In this document: positions 1,617 to 26,719 of the stretch, piece after piece | Layout: each line of letters begins with the position of its first letter | Numbering within the stretch: position 1 is the first letter of the stretch | Source: a virus | Direction: 5' to 3' (one strand) | DNA length: 26,924 nt | Virus record (IMG/VR): IMGVR_UViG_3300030098_001191 | Location: 1-26,924 of that record | Program-made: the position numbers and the translations under genes | The notes under the pieces: generated by a model | What the model was told of the DNA's origin: nothing | The model's database searches: none | The model's input: only the letters and a program-made list of their open reading frames with translations

Positions 1617-4600
1617 TGGCCAGTGTAACGCAAAAAGTTAATAACTATGTCTTAGGAATTTCAACGCAACCTGACGAACAAAAAATTCCTGGCCAAGTTG
1701 TTGACTTAGTAAATGGTGTACCGGACGTAGTAACTAACTTAACTAAACGTCCTGGTAGTACACTAGTAAAAGATATCACTACACAAACAGCTCATTCTAC
1801 AACATTTGCTGTAGATACTGGAGCAAATTCAAAATGGTTTAGTATTTATACAAATGATTCGGAACAATATATTGGGCAATGTGCTGCAGATGGTGATGTT
1901 AAAGTATGGAGATGTAGCGATGGTGTATCAATACCCGTTGATTATGCTAATGTTCCTGGTTCAGGTGTTGCAACTTATTTAGATAATACTGCTGAATCAG
2001 ATGAGAAGTCTTCTGATATACAAGTTCTTACTATTAATGAAACTACTTTCTTTGTTAATAGGAAAAAGAATACTGCAATGAAAACAGATGCAAGTTCTAA
2101 ATCACCTCCTGCAATAAATGAAGCATATATAGAACTTGATACTATTTCATATGGTAAGCAATACGCACTAGATATATACGACCCAGACGATAACACAACT
2201 TATTCATATACACGTGCTACAAGTATAGCTGTTTCAAAATCTTGTACTTTTGGTGGAGTCACAGCTGGTTCAGGAGAACCTGGTGATGGTTCATGTGAAG
2301 GTATGGGTAGAGAGACTGTTACTGCAAATACTGGAACAGCTATATGGTCTACATCTCCTCCTAATGCAGGTTCAGGTGGTAAGACTAATCTCAGATATGA
2401 AATGGATACACGTTGTACTCCTCAACCTAAAGATCAAACTGGAGATATTGAAGGTGATGATTATTATGATGCATATGCTCCATATGCTAAATTACAATTT
2501 GGTGGAGAAGGATGGGCAACTAATGATACTCACTCCTATACCTCACAAAAGGGTGTCACAACACAAATAACTGTTAAAAATCATTCGACAGTTACATCAA
2601 GAGCTAATCTAGCATTAGTACGTCCAGAACCTACTTCCTCAACTGCTGATGAGCATGTATCAGCAGCAGCTATATTAGGTGATCTTAAGGCTAGTATAGA
2701 TGCTATATCTGGTCATGGTATAACAGCTACTATTGTAGGTAATGGTATCCATTTGTATAGAAAAGATGCGTTTGGTGTAACTTCACCTGAAAGGAATTTA
2801 TTAAATATTGTTACTAGTGAGGCTAATAATATAGCCGATCTACCACGCACTTGTCGCCATGGTTACGTTGTTAGAATTGTTAACAGTGGTGAGGATATGG
2901 ATGATTATTATCTTAGATTTCAAGCAGAAAATATTGCAGCAGATATAAGCCAAACAGGAACATATGCTAGATCTGGAACTACAGTTACTGTAACAGCAGC
3001 TGGACATGGTTTAAGTGCAGGTGATGATGTTATATGTGACTTCACTAGTGGTGCAGCAACTGATGGTTTCTATGAGATTACCAGCGTAGCTGATGTTAAC
3101 ACTTTTACTATTACTGATTCAGCGTCAGGCACTATCTCTGCAGGTGAAACAGTTTCATTCACTCCAGCTCGCTTCGGAGAGGGCGTGTGGGAAGAGGTAG
3201 CACAACCAAATATAGATATTACTATTGATAAGGATACGATGCCTCTGAAGCTCACCAGAGTACTTCCTGGTACGTTCTCTATTAATGGAGGTGGTGCTAC
3301 TTCTTATGCTAATGGTGCTTTTAGATTTGATTATCCAGATTGGGGTGTACGTGATGTAGGAGATGATATAACTAATCCTGCTCCTTCTTTTATAGGATAC
3401 CCTATTCAAAAGATGTCATTCTTTAGGAACAGAATAGCTCTGCTTAGTGCAGAAAACGTCATACTATCTAGAACTAATGACTTCTATAACTTCTGGGTTA
3501 AAACTGCTATGGCTATTTCCAATGCAGACCCTATTGATTTACAGTCGAGTTCTACATTCCCAACTAAACTCTATGATGCAGTCGAAGCAAATACAGGTCT
3601 AGTTATCTTCAGTGCAAATGAACAGTTTTTATTAAGTTCTGGAGCTGAAGCTTTACTTACTCCTGAAACTGCTAAGATTACTTACTTATCATCATATGCT
3701 TTTAATCCTGATTCTAGTCCTGTATCATTAGGAACTACTATAGGATTTTTAAATAGCACTGCAAAGAATGCTAGATTTTATGAAATAGCTAATGTCAATG
3801 CAAGAGAACAACCTGACATAATTGAACAAAGTAAAATTGTAGGTGAATTATTCCCTACAAATACTACAATGATCTCTGAATCAAATGAAAATGATTTAAT
3901 TTTATTTGGCACAGATAGTACATTACATACTGCTACAAATGAAGTATGGGGATATAAGTATTATGAGGCTGGAAATAAACGTGCTCAATCAGCTTGGTTC
4001 AGATGGACTATGCCTAATAACGTTATTTATCATACAATACTAGATGATGTATATTATGCAGTACTTAATACAGGCTCCACATATACCCTAGAAAAATTTG
4101 ACATAAAATTGAAATCAGATACCTTATTAATAGGTACTGAACCTGACGTTAATAGGGTATTTTTAGATACCAAAAAAACTATTGCATCAGGTGATATGAC
4201 TTATAATGCTGCAACTGATGTGACTACATTTACATTAGGTGCAGGGTATTATAGTTCACGCACACTTACAGCATATTGTATAACAGCAGGTGATTCAGCA
4301 GGTAAGAGTTATGACATTCCGAGTTCAGCTATTACTGGTACTGCTCCTAATGAAACTGTTACTCTCCCTGGTAATTGGAAAACAAGTACTAGCGATGGTA
4401 GCTCAATTAATACAGACGTAGTGATAGGATATGAATATGAGTTTGAAGTAGAGTTTCCTAAGATATATATGACTAGAGCTGAAGGGGAAAAAATTAGATC
4501 TGAAACTAGAGGATCACTTGTATTACATCGGATGAATTTTGATTTCGGTGATGTAGGAGTTATTGACGTCACTCTACAACGTAAAGGTAGAGATGATTAT

Positions 4601-23830: not shown

Positions 23831-24424
23831 ATGAGAATATTAGACAATCTTCTTCATGAAGATGACTTTAAACCTATACAGACTTACTTCTTAAATAAGT
23901 TACCTTGGGCTTACCTAGATCATATTGTAGGTACCACTGGAGTAGAAGAAGAGAATGAGGACTGCTATCAGTTTGTTCATACTTTTTATAGTGCAAAGGA
24001 TCCGTATTTAGAACGGAAGACTTCCGAACATTCTCATATTATTAAGCCTATATTATTCAAACTTGCTCCTTGGCTTGTATTGCGTGTTAAAGCTAACTTA
24101 CGACCCTTTACACCTGAACATATTCACAGTGCCTTTCACACCGATCTGAAGGACGCTGGACAGCTTACTGCTATCTACTACCTAAACACGTGTAATGGTT
24201 ATACGATGTTTAAAGATGGGACTAAGGTTGAGAGTGTTGAGAATAGAGTGTTGATTTTTGATGGTAGCGAGTTACATTGTGGTGCATCTTGTACTGATGA
24301 GAAAGCACGATTCGTGTTGAATATAAACTACTTACCTGGAACGTTAGACGATGGCTCCAAGTATATTCCCGATGATAAAACGTGTGGTCTTCCTACCCTG
24401 TTAAATTTTGGCAAAAATGTCTGA
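23831..24424 (+). CDS. 2OG-Fe(II) oxygenase-like protein
   Basis: 197 residues with the iron-binding set of the 2-oxoglutarate dioxygenase fold: H103 and D105 in AFHTDLKD, H149 in GSELHCGA, and R160 (KARFVLNINY) for the 2-oxoglutarate carboxylate, with a typical YYLN strand and a VLIFDGSELHC strand. Such genes are common in marine cyanophages. They use Fe(II), O2 and 2-oxoglutarate to hydroxylate an unknown target (protein, nucleic acid or small molecule). The gene lies after the late terminator and before the gene-free junction, with the 74-aa membrane protein just upstream, so it is probably an accessory host-directed gene. Motif spacing is good, but the substrate cannot be read from the sequence. 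Confidence 0.82.
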   Translation: MRILDNLLHEDDFKPIQTYFLNKLPWAYLDHIVGTTGVEEENEDCYQFVHTFYSAKDPYLERKTSEHSHIIKPILFKLAPWLVLRVKANLRPFTPEHIHSAFHTDLKDAGQLTAIYYLNTCNGYTMFKDGTKVESVENRVLIFDGSELHCGASCTDEKARFVLNINYLPGTLDDGSKYIPDDKTCGLPTLLNFGKNV

Positions 24425-24595: not shown

Positions 24596-24666
24596 ACATA
24601 TTAGCATTGCTTATGTGTAACATTGTGTGCTTATCTGTAGCGCTATGTGTTAAGTAATAGACACAC

Positions 24667-24680
24667 AGTTACTATCATTA
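24667..24680 (+). repeat. 14-bp inverted repeat, left copy
   Basis: AGTTACTATCATTA is the exact reverse complement of 25254-25267. The pair flanks the first early module (promoter 1, the 55-aa ORF, the terminator and the 89-aa ORF). The copy lies directly before the operator-like repeat at 24681. Confidence 0.65.
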
Positions 24681-24693
24681 TTACAGAGTGTAA
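24681..24693. promoter_or_regulatory. operator-like inverted repeat TTACA-N3-TGTAA, copy 1
   Basis: TTACA GAG TGTAA is a perfect 5-bp inverted repeat that lies exactly 17 bases upstream of the -35 box at 24711. The same repeat, with centre GAA, lies exactly 17 bases upstream of the second promoter (25299-25311). Matching sequence and spacing suggest a binding site for an activator or repressor. The protein is unknown. Confidence 0.55.
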
Positions 24694-24710
24694 CGATCTA
24701 TTGATTATAC

Positions 24711-24739
24711 TTGACTTTACACGTGATCCGTGCTATATT
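24711..24739 (+). promoter_or_regulatory. sigma70-type promoter 1 (extended -10)
   Basis: TTGACT (24711-24716), a 17-base spacer, then TGC directly before TATATT (24734-24739), an extended -10. It drives the 55-aa ORF at 24768 and lies in a gene-free region. It is closely similar to promoter 2 at 25329-25357. A host-type promoter fits early transcription by host RNA polymerase. Confidence 0.82.
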
Positions 24740-24767
24740 AAGAATGTAAATAAATGAGGTACATTAA

Positions 24768-24950: not shown

Positions 24951-24986
24951 ACTGTACACTCACTAATTAACACAAACCGTACCATC
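24951..24986 (+). promoter_or_regulatory. repeated leader element, copy a
   Basis: The segment contains TGTACACTCACTAATTAA followed by CACAAACC and reaches the ATG at 24987. It has no SD. Related sequences precede the starts at 25647, 25865 and 26270 and the tRNA at 26155. It may be an mRNA leader, a processing site or a phage RNA polymerase promoter. Confidence 0.55.
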
Positions 24987-25267: not shown

Positions 25268-25298
25268 CACAGTCAATCCGCTGCACTAAGTATAATGA

Positions 25299-25311
25299 TT
25301 ACAGAATGTAA
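25299..25311. promoter_or_regulatory. operator-like inverted repeat TTACA-N3-TGTAA, copy 2
   Basis: TTACA GAA TGTAA ends exactly 17 bases before the -35 box of promoter 2. Copy 1 at 24681-24693 has the same arms and the same spacing to promoter 1, and the 17 bases between are also similar (CGATnTAT ... TTnTAC). A shared regulator is likely. Confidence 0.55.
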
Positions 25312-25328
25312 CGATGTATCATTTGTAC

Positions 25329-25357
25329 TTGACTTTTCACCGATTATGTGCTATACT
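25329..25357 (+). promoter_or_regulatory. sigma70-type promoter 2 (extended -10)
   Basis: TTGACT (25329-25334), a 17-base spacer, TGC and then TATACT (25352-25357). It is a near-duplicate of promoter 1 and drives the ORF at 25390, which has a strong SD (GAGGAG, 25375-25380). Confidence 0.83.
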
Positions 25358-25389
25358 AATAGTATAAAACAATCGAGGAGTAATCACTC

Positions 25390-25557
25390 ATGAAAACTAA
25401 TAACAAACTCATTCCAATCTTCAACGGTTCAGTATTAGTGAACGAGACAGCATTACATGATCAAGCTATCATGAATGTATTGAAATCTTCTTCACTAAAT
25501 AACTTTGAATACAAGTCAATTGATTCTAGTTATTATAACATCTCTGATAGAGATTAG
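25390..25557 (+). CDS. small early protein of unknown function, 55 aa
   Basis: Promoter 2 and the SD GAGGAG (25375-25380) lead directly to ATG 25390. The 55-residue product has a short beta-type N-terminus (KLIPIFNGSVLV) and a Ser/Asn/Tyr/Asp-rich C-terminus. There is no signal peptide, membrane segment or known motif. The TAG stop is also the first three bases of the acceptor-like stem of the tRNA-like element at 25555-25602, so translation and folding of that RNA would interfere. I do not recognise a family. Strong expression signals make it a good candidate for an early host-takeover protein, but that is inference from position. Confidence 0.68.
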   Translation: MKTNNKLIPIFNGSVLVNETALHDQAIMNVLKSSSLNNFEYKSIDSSYYNISDRD

Positions 25558-25602
25558 CCTGATGTTTAAGACATTTAGTAGGTGCAATTCCTACCCAGGT
25601 TA
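25555..25602 (+). ncRNA. 48-nt tRNA-like element (acceptor-like stem, short arm, T-arm)
   Basis: TAGCCTG (25555-25561) pairs with CAGGTTA (25596-25602), 7 bp with one G-T. Inside, ATGT/ACAT makes a 4-bp arm with a 5-base loop, and GTAGG/CCTAC makes a 5-bp T-arm with loop TGCAATT, close to the tRNA T-loop. There is no D-arm and no proper anticodon arm. The first three bases are the stop codon of the gene before. It is followed by a hairpin and leader like those after the true tRNA. It may be a deleted tRNA, a tRNA mimic or a processing signal. Confidence 0.45.
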
Positions 25603-25621
25603 TTGATACTTTATGTATCAA
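25603..25621 (+). other. hairpin after tRNA-like element
   Basis: TTGATAC pairs with GTATCAA around a 5-base loop, a perfect 7-bp stem directly after the tRNA-like element. It has no T-run and so is not a standard terminator. The hairpin at 26228-26245 after the true tRNA has the matching place, with paired changes in the stem. Confidence 0.65.
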
Positions 25622-25628
25622 ATTGTCC

Positions 25629-25646
25629 AACTAATTAACACAAACT
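25629..25646 (+). promoter_or_regulatory. repeated leader element, copy b
   Basis: AACTAATTAACACAAACT ends directly before ATG 25647 and shares CTAATTAACACAAAC with copy a. There is no SD. It is preceded by TTGTCC, as copy e is preceded by CTGTCC. Confidence 0.55.
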
Positions 25647-25829
25647 ATGTGGTACCTTGTTCAACAAGATCCAGGCGAAACTGTCGCTCTTGGATGTTAT
25701 GAAGACTACGAAAAAGCTAAGTTTGTATTAATGAACAAGCAAAGATTTAATAGTCATTGTTTCTATGAAATCTTGCATAGTTCGGACTTAATGTATCAAG
25801 TTCCTTATGAGAATTTGGTAACTAACTAA
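25647..25829 (+). CDS. small protein of unknown function, 60 aa
   Basis: A 60-codon ORF whose ATG directly follows leader copy b. The product starts MWYLVQQDPGE, is rich in Tyr, Glu, Asn and Val, and looks like a small globular alpha/beta protein, with EDYEKAKFVLMNKQRF as a probable helix. There is no signal peptide or membrane segment, and I recognise no family. Support for translation comes from the repeated leader and the spacing to the next gene, which has the same kind of leader. It would be made from read-through of promoter 2 unless the leader is itself a promoter. Confidence 0.55.
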   Translation: MWYLVQQDPGETVALGCYEDYEKAKFVLMNKQRFNSHCFYEILHSSDLMYQVPYENLVTN

Positions 25830-25864
25830 CACAAACTGTACACTCACTATTTATCACAATCACC
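25821..25864 (+). promoter_or_regulatory. repeated leader element, copy c (double)
   Basis: ACTAACTAACACAAAC is followed by TGTACACTCACTATTTATCA and a short tail up to ATG 25865, so both halves of the leader motif occur one after the other. The second half shares TGTACACTCACTA with copy a. The first bases overlap the end of the 60-aa gene. Confidence 0.55.
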
Positions 25865-26098
25865 ATGCAATCACTCAACGTTAAATCTTCTGCCGTTAAC
25901 CAGCTAAATGTTGACGAACTCGAAAGAATCGCTCAAGTTGAATTCACAAACGGTAAGAAGTATACATACTTTGATGTAGCATCTGATGCAATTCGTGAGC
26001 TATTGTTTAACTCTAAGCCTGATACATCTATAGGCAAATGGGTTAACACTAATTTACTAAATGCTGAAAGACCTTATCAATTAGGCTTCACTGATTAG
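25865..26098 (+). CDS. KTSC-domain protein, 77 aa
   Basis: The 77-residue product is almost entirely a KTSC-type domain: VKSSAVNQL at the start, RIAQVEFTNGKKYTYFDV in the middle and a C-terminal helix with IGKWVNTNLL, matching the family layout SS-x-I, V-x-F-x-x-G-x-x-Y-x-Y, G-x-x-x-N. KTSC domains occur alone in many phages and bacteria and at the C-terminus of some lysyl-tRNA synthetases. Their role is unclear, and nucleic-acid binding has been suggested. A tRNA-Asp gene begins 57 bases after this gene. The start is set by leader copy c, and no SD is seen. Confidence 0.7.
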   Translation: MQSLNVKSSAVNQLNVDELERIAQVEFTNGKKYTYFDVASDAIRELLFNSKPDTSIGKWVNTNLLNAERPYQLGFTD

Positions 26099-26101
26099 TC
26101 T

Positions 26102-26127
26102 CACTAATTAACATTCACAATCGCACG
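26102..26127 (+). promoter_or_regulatory. repeated leader element, copy d, before the tRNA
   Basis: CACTAATTAACATTCACAAT followed by CGCACG links the leader motif to a 14-base string TTCACAATCGCACG (26114-26127). The same 14 bases occur at 26900-26913 near the window end. This copy lies 27 bases before the tRNA, not before a start codon. Confidence 0.5.
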
Positions 26128-26154
26128 GCTAAGTAACATTAACTGTGCTTTCCT

Positions 26155-26225
26155 GGAGCTATAGATTAACGGTTAAATCATGTGCCTGTCACGCATAAGA
26201 TAAGGGTTCAATTCCCTTTAGCTCC
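26155..26225 (+). tRNA. tRNA-Asp (anticodon GTC)
   Basis: A full cloverleaf fits 71 bases. The acceptor GGAGCTA / TAGCTCC is perfect (7 bp). The D-arm is GATT/AATC with a loop containing GG. The anticodon stem is TGTGC/GCATA with loop CTGTCAC (T33, anticodon GTC, A37). The variable loop has 4 bases, and the T-arm AAGGG/CCCTT has loop TTCAATT. The 3' CCA is not encoded and the discriminator is G. It decodes GAC and GAT, which are frequent in the phage genes here. A hairpin follows 2 bases later. Confidence 0.93.
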
Positions 26226-26227
26226 GT

Positions 26228-26245
26228 TGACACTAATATGTGTCA
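26228..26245 (+). other. hairpin after tRNA-Asp
   Basis: TGACAC pairs with GTGTCA around TAATAT, starting 2 bases after the tRNA discriminator base. With no T-run it is not a standard terminator. Its counterpart at 25603-25621 has GATAC/GTATC in place of GACAC/GTGTC, so a base pair has changed on both sides. A role in 3' processing is possible. Confidence 0.65.
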
Positions 26246-26247
26246 TT

Positions 26248-26269
26248 CTGTCCACTATTTAACAACAAC
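26248..26269 (+). promoter_or_regulatory. repeated leader element, copy e
   Basis: CTGTCCACTATTTAACAACA and two more bases reach ATG 26270. It shares the CTGT ... CACTA-TTAACA skeleton with copies a-c. There is no SD before the ATG. The A/C-rich end should be free of RNA structure. Confidence 0.5.
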
Positions 26270-26719
26270 ATGAGCAAACAGTTTGAATCAGCTTATGACG
26301 AAATCATTGAGACAATTGATTACAAGGAAGCAAAGGAAATCGTTGATCATGGTTGTCAATCTGGTGTGTGCAGCCAATACATATATTATGCTGACACCAT
26401 CAAGTTCTTTGATAACTATGAAGAAGAGATTACCGACTACATTATTACCTGTTGCGGTTCTGAGATCTTAGCTAACATTTTCTTAGATAATAATTGCAGC
26501 ATTGATATGTATAAAAACGAGGCAACTTGGTGCTACATTGAGTTAATTTGTTCTCAAATCGTTGACAAGTATGAGTATGAATCTACAACATGTGAAGAAT
26601 TATCTGATTTAGATGATGATGAATCAATCAAATTGTATGCTGATTATTCTAAAGAAGAAAAGCAAGCAATTATTGACTCTGATTGGGGTAAAAAACATTT
26701 AGTTTTTGTTAACGCATGA
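26270..26719 (+). CDS. strongly acidic early protein, 149 aa
   Basis: ATG 26270 after leader copy e is chosen over GTG 26240, which would read through the hairpin. The 149-residue protein has about 34 Asp/Glu, 11 Lys and no Arg, and about eight Cys. The pattern HGCQSGVCSQYIYYADTIKF then FFDNYEEEI recalls a phage hypothetical family (HGCxSG ... IYYxDTxxFF), possibly DUF7222, from memory. It ends with a DWGKKHLVFVNA tail. Strong acidity in an early gene is also a feature of DNA-mimic proteins such as T7 Ocr, but no sequence link to these is seen. The stop overlaps the next ATG (ATGA). Confidence 0.75.
   Translation: MSKQFESAYDEIIETIDYKEAKEIVDHGCQSGVCSQYIYYADTIKFFDNYEEEITDYIITCCGSEILANIFLDNNCSIDMYKNEATWCYIELICSQIVDKYEYESTTCEELSDLDDDESIKLYADYSKEEKQAIIDSDWGKKHLVFVNA

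Follow-up and report, generated by a model that had tools for sequence, protein, structure and literature searches.

Anticodon-less tRNA mimics probably mark the points at which host enzymes split the messages of T7-like cyanophages

Why should a phage place a complete tRNA-Asp ahead of one early gene and, ahead of another, a 48-nt element with only the acceptor stem and T arm of a tRNA, each followed by a hairpin of the same kind? Both arrangements are found in the window, by which we mean the whole stretch of DNA analysed here, a 26.9-kb IMG/VR contig of a T7-like cyanophage with matches to tail protein and terminase, the latter 82-85% identical to that of cultured T7-like cyanophages. Our analysis suggests that such tRNA-like elements (mimics) probably mark points at which host enzymes that process tRNAs cut the viral message, because real tRNA genes occupy the same sites in sister phages.

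The sequence-only reading had described the 48-nt element with its hairpin (TTGATAC/GTATCAA), TTGTCC, the leader CTAATTAACACAAAC and the ATG at 25647, and the tRNA-Asp with its hairpin (TGACAC/GTGTCA), CTGTCC and the ATG at 26270, and all of these are present (Table 1). The tRNA copy has a leader as well, but the sequence given for it, 'ACTA-TTAACA', is really ACTATTTAACA, with an offset of one base relative to the other copy. The leader had been counted as part of a cassette; since the same motif recurs at 24961 and 25820 with neither tRNA nor mimic, it lies outside the cassette. At all three of its positions (24961, 25629 and 25820) CTAATTAACACAAAC stands ahead of early ORFs and lacks a Shine-Dalgarno sequence, unlike several structural genes, which use GGAGG.

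Table 1. Features of the two early cassettes and their surroundings, in window coordinates.
Feature	Coordinates	Strand	Basis
Sigma-70-like promoter of the early transcript (TTGACT, 17 nt, TATACT)	25331..25362	+	sequence reading
Short upstream ORF, 55 aa; its UAG stop supplies bases 1-3 of the mimic	25390..25557	+	
tRNA-like element without anticodon arm, 48 nt	25555..25602	+	fold, covariation, covariance model match of 86 bits
Hairpin TTGATAC-TTTAT-GTATCAA, 7 bp, beginning right behind the discriminator base	25603..25621	+	
ATTGTCC and unstructured leader CTAATTAACACAAAC, without Shine-Dalgarno sequence	25622..25646	+	
Early ORF P0001, 60 aa, behind the mimic	25647..25829	+	
Hairpin GCACGG/CTGTGC and TTTCCT, upstream of tRNA-Asp	26120..26153	+	sequence reading
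tRNA-Asp (GUC); a mimic instead in L002 and L003	26154..26227	+	ARAGORN, Rfam; 70 bits
Hairpin TGACAC-TAATAT-GTGTCA, TTCTGTCC, leader	26228..26269	+	
Early ORF P0002, 149 aa, behind tRNA-Asp	26270..26719	+	

The mimic consists of an acceptor (AGCCTG/CAGGTT), a D-like arm (ATGT-TTAAG-ACAT), a T arm (GTAGG-TGCAATT-CCTAC) and the discriminator A25602; counted as in a tRNA, its acceptor is AGCCUG/CAGGUU plus an A.C pair adjoining the T stem. Folded alone with RNAfold, it forms a three-way junction of acceptor, D-like hairpin and T arm (-12.8 kcal/mol), to which the program adds one or two further pairs; the folding z-scores are -2.2 for the mimic, -3.3 for mimic plus hairpin and -5.8 for the hairpin alone. 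The discriminator of the tRNA-Asp is a G, and its hairpin (UGACAC-UAAUAU-GUGUCA) is placed as it is behind the mimic. ARAGORN, which the sequence-only reading had proposed, and Rfam each returned the tRNA-Asp as their sole detection and left the mimic unreported, and no Rfam family matched 25555-25602 above the gathering threshold or at a lax one; a weak match to the DUF2693 RNA (Rfam, E 1.6) was rejected as chance. Compared with a functional tRNA, the mimic has the acceptor stem and T arm and is devoid of an anticodon arm, and therefore cannot decode.

The early promoter region, 90 nt with sigma-70-like boxes, exists in two copies (73%; 24666-24755 and 25284-25373), the promoter at 24707 being the partner of that in Table 1, and in relatives ATTATTACAGAGTGTAAC precedes the promoter-region copy. 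The stem of the hairpin upstream of the tRNA-Asp varies with pairing kept in L004 and L002 (GCAC/GTGC, GCGC/GCGC), and this TTTCCT hairpin precedes either tRNA or mimic at the P0002 site (window, L004, L002). We found no homologues of P0001 in cultured phages by tblastn. Elsewhere in the window, 23831-24421 carries the PHROG label 'DNA endonuclease V' and looks like a 2OG-Fe(II) oxygenase.

Mimics and tRNAs at shared sites in T7-like cyanophages

Among related contigs, gathered through protein neighbours, the 48-nt fold is kept and its stems vary with pairing. At the P0001 site, the mimics of L003/L005, L006, L009 and L012 differ in the sequence of acceptor, T stem and hairpin and keep the pairing intact, and RNAalifold gave the same structure for 14 members, with two-sided changes in 9 of the 17 pairs. 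The paired change between the two window hairpins (GATAC/GTATC versus GACAC/GTGTC), to which the sequence-only reading had drawn attention, is real and one among many. At the same site, L002 (about 800-940) and L007 (about 3680-3800) have no mimic and carry another conserved element, GATCCTTTCCTAATAACATTCACAGTC..GAAGGGTTCAT..CTTC; L008, like these two, has an element other than a mimic there.

Mimics share sites and flanks with tRNA-Asp and tRNA-Gly. Before P0002, the window, L001 and L004 have the tRNA-Asp, and L002 and L003 a mimic (GATCTCA, AGAGGTGCAATTCCTCT, TGAGATC); the flanks of the two versions are homologous and their hairpin, TTGACACTAATATGTGTCATTCTGTCC, is identical. At the site ahead of the major capsid gene, a tRNA-Gly is annotated in NATL1A-7, and S45C4, P-SSP2, P-SSP3, P-SSP7 and S-TIP37 have mimics, with a downstream leader, GATACC..GACGGTGGGA(T/A)AGACC, common to these phages. 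In L211 a tRNA-Asp is directly followed by TTGATACTTTATGTATCAAAT, the hairpin of the window mimic. The same hairpin behind either element and the swap of tRNA-Asp for mimic at one site bear out the earlier proposal that tRNA or mimic plus hairpin form one cassette, and because real tRNAs occupy the same sites in sister phages, the mimics may descend from tRNAs.

Searches of IMG/VR for a T arm plus hairpin gave 69 matches in the right register, 15 of them with a perfect T stem (one, in L087, looks like chance), against 0 of 37 perfect T stems in a control with the register shifted by one base, that is, with 13 rather than 12 bases between T arm and hairpin. A second pattern, with a canonical T loop, recovered tRNAs as well as further mimics, the hairpin being placed in the same way. 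Matches to a pattern of leader plus TGTCC were mostly unrelated coding sequence, and the mimic pattern with a TTGTCC tail had no match across 84,980 bacterial genomes.

A strict scan (T stem of 5 bp, acceptor of at least 6 bp) detected mimics in 8 of 13 complete T7-like cyanophage genomes; on reversed sequence it gave two matches in 1.27 Mb, neither with a hairpin. With covariance models, the count rose to 11 of 18 T7-like cyanophage genomes or early regions, with up to four mimics per genome: S-TIP37 at 620, 983, 1439 and 20510, S45C4 at 2848, 3182, 29524 and 30946, and the model phage P-SSP7 at 600, 999 and 20629, the one at 999 having a clear T arm and hairpin and a weak acceptor. The first model, R1, was trained on window-type sequences, NATL1A-7 and L092, and independently found P-SSP7, S45C4, P-SSP3, P-SSP2, S-TIP37 and S-RIP2 with weak E-values (0.013 to 0.88). 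The second, R2, built from R1 matches, produced 27 matches at E up to 0.3 in 654 kb of cyanophage DNA (including the window tRNA-Asp) versus one in 633 kb of control DNA from T7 and unrelated IMG/VR contigs, an excess that is partly by construction, since R2 was trained on several of its own matches. It had no match in the T7 genome. The mimic at P-GSP1 12635 comes from the pattern scan and is not among the R2 matches at this threshold. The sequence-only reading, which had suggested building such a model, thus understates the extent of the element family.

The mimics are distributed over nine genera (Cheungvirus, Tangaroavirus, Sednavirus, Lingvirus, Tiamatvirus, Igirivirus, Tritonvirus, Lirvirus and Ashivirus), and no match was obtained in the whole genomes of S-CBP4, S-RIP1 and S-B28 or in the early regions of DSL-LC07, WH11-B, S28-C3 and S-CBP1. 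All lie on the gene strand, at early-gene junctions, before psbA or before the major capsid gene, and annotated positions are intergenic or extend over a stop codon; the exception, P-SSP2 7276, shares bases with two small predicted ORFs. Most have 10-20 nt between acceptor and T arm, with a single small D-like arm. A third type, with a longer middle arm and a large-loop hairpin, is found just upstream of the early promoter (L106 6316-6418, L131 9853-9955, L003 2175-2268, L007 3183-3279).

A predicted role in splitting the viral message

Our preferred reading, to which we assign a probability of roughly 0.7, is that the mimics are minimal substrates of host RNase P and RNase Z that punctuate the polycistronic mRNAs of T7-like cyanophages, leaving a hairpin at the 5' end of the downstream product. 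The mimic retains the features read by both enzymes, namely the acceptor/T-arm stack, the D-loop/T-loop contact and the absence of an encoded CCA. Host RNase P would cut on the 5' side, where the preceding ORF has its stop codon, and host RNase Z on the 3' side, behind the discriminator base. The new downstream mRNA would then start with a stable hairpin, its 5'-monophosphate end shielded from RNase E, followed by an unstructured leader for ribosome loading, and a true tRNA would fill the same role at sister sites. In 6 of 8 mimics that had been found without any hairpin requirement, a hairpin with a stem of at least 6 bp begins 0-2 nt past the discriminator, versus 5.4% of random positions, which fits a structured new 5' end; S-TIP37 1463 and the S45C4 capsid-gene mimic are without such a hairpin right behind the discriminator, and the hairpin is therefore not universal. 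None of the mimics has CCA behind it, and where CCA is unencoded RNase Z cuts behind the discriminator. Bacterial RNase P accepts extensively truncated tRNA (PMC4919922) and cuts acceptor-T-arm minihelices (PMC11143913), and the cyanobacterial enzyme prefers CCA-less substrates (PMC4264200).

In the window, the acceptor stem contains the stop codon with which the upstream ORF ends, and a reading of the sequences shows the same overlap at NATL2A-133 43112 and at S45C4 29571 and 30946. A 5' cut would delete that stop, and we therefore kept as a rival the variant in which the mimic is cut on its 3' side only, or is not excised, and caps the 3' end of the upstream mRNA against exonucleases, possibly after CCA addition, the hairpin capping the downstream mRNA. 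True tRNAs at the same sites need both cuts to work, and we consider this variant unlikely. Less likely still would be a cis-regulatory element, a translation operator or attenuator that binds a protein or the ribosome and involves no cleavage. The location of the mimics in leaders would suit such an element, as would the stop-codon overlap, which could couple translation with folding, but full tRNAs substitute at the same site, the downstream genes differ (early ORFs, psbA, the capsid gene) and the window mimic has no U-run for termination.

Selection on the stems and the elbow contact

Could the mimics be tRNA genes on their way out, which have retained their structure through recency alone? 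The real tRNAs that sister phages carry at these sites might suggest so, and the sequence-only reading had left room for it. Across 39 distinct sequences, in an alignment that was fitted to the covariance model and so favours its own score, 93.8% of cells are paired versus 66.6% (sd 1.2) after shuffling, 13 of the 17 pairs show two-sided changes, and the covariation score is 0.67 versus 0.157 (sd 0.016) shuffled and at most 0.14 after a one-column slide. The acceptor is less regular (88.7% of cells paired, some acceptors having just 5 bp or mismatches), and the T stem is perfect in every member collected. Independently of this alignment, a swap test on 22 hand-collected mimics gave 6.2 of 7 acceptor pairs with a mimic's own halves versus 3.4 with swapped ones (0 of 20,000 permutations), a comparison that also favours own halves in that the script selects the best-pairing 5' strand of each mimic; for L012 this strand differs from the one in the alignment.

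The loops change in a coupled manner as well. Mimic T loops are of two kinds, U54-U55-C56 and U54-G55-C56, and tRNAs have G18 G19 in the D-loop. The segment past the acceptor contains GG in 16 of 16 U55 mimics versus 7 of 21 G55 mimics (p 2e-5; 37 distinct mimics), and A/U-A-G in 20 of 21 G55 mimics versus 3 of 16 U55 mimics (p 2e-6), both p-values being nominal, because the rule was first seen in part of the set, segment borders were drawn manually and the relatives are not independent. The D-like loop often ends in AG, adjoining the 3' strand of the D-like stem. This pattern suggests that G18-U55 was replaced by A18-G55, with G19-C56 kept. Perfect T stems, covariation of the stems across no fewer than nine genera and coupled changes that keep a loop-loop contact leave the decayed-tRNA reading largely refuted and, in our estimate, very improbable.

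Integration into tRNA-Leu by some T7-like cyanophages (PMC8776855) recalls a further origin, recombination at a host tRNA gene that left an attP or some other remnant, which we rejected as having next to no likelihood: the known attP, which matches the first half of tRNA-Leu, lies elsewhere, downstream of the integrase (PMC8776855), a search of 84,980 bacterial genomes with the 25-nt 3' half of the mimic returned nothing, so that no host tRNA identity was found, and mimics occur in phages without an annotated integrase (NATL1A-7, NATL2A-133, S-RIP2, P-GSP1).

Relation to known systems

No report of tRNA-like elements or RNase P in cyanophages, or of tRNA punctuation in phages, was found in the literature within reach, which included few subscription papers, and Rfam holds no family for the mimics. 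In T7 the early mRNA is split at RNase III sites; the mimics would share this role in splitting an early polycistronic transcript, with a tRNA-like fold in place of a long RNase III duplex. The C4 antisense RNA of phages P1 and P7 is cut by RNase P, which probably recognises it as a tRNA mimic, a likeness to our elements, but C4 is an antisense regulator, whereas the mimics match no Rfam family. The model minihelices used with RNase P (acceptor stem, T stem and T loop) have the same minimal architecture (PMC11143913); they are synthetic, whereas the mimics are natural and have in addition a D-like arm and a loop-loop contact. In plant mitochondria, RNase P and RNase Z cut t-elements at mRNA ends (PMC11658184), and there, as in mitochondrial tRNA punctuation, tRNA-like structures stand at mRNA ends as the mimics do, the cuts at t-elements defining the transcript ends (PMC11658184). 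The mimics have a tRNA-like fold at mRNA junctions and by analogy resemble t-elements in function, although membership in that class depends on cleavage; t-elements are organellar tRNA homologues, whereas the mimics form a family in phages, lack the anticodon arm, are followed by a hairpin and trade places with real tRNAs, and their cutting we infer.

More broadly, and with a little more confidence than doubt, we propose that T7-like cyanophages have a tRNA-punctuation system of their own, in which anticodon-less mimics, one class with A18-G55, precede early genes, psbA and the capsid gene and host RNase P and RNase Z would shape the transcriptome, most products carrying a hairpin cap at the 5' end. 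The mimics represent an RNA family missing from the annotation of well-studied genomes, those of P-SSP7 and S-TIP37 among them, are a likely phage counterpart of the T7 RNase III sites, and as putative natural minimal substrates of RNase P and RNase Z offer a re-encoded tRNA elbow contact to test. If true, this would be mitochondrial-style tRNA punctuation in lytic DNA phages, and would explain how early, photosynthesis and capsid messages are processed in some of the most abundant marine viruses.
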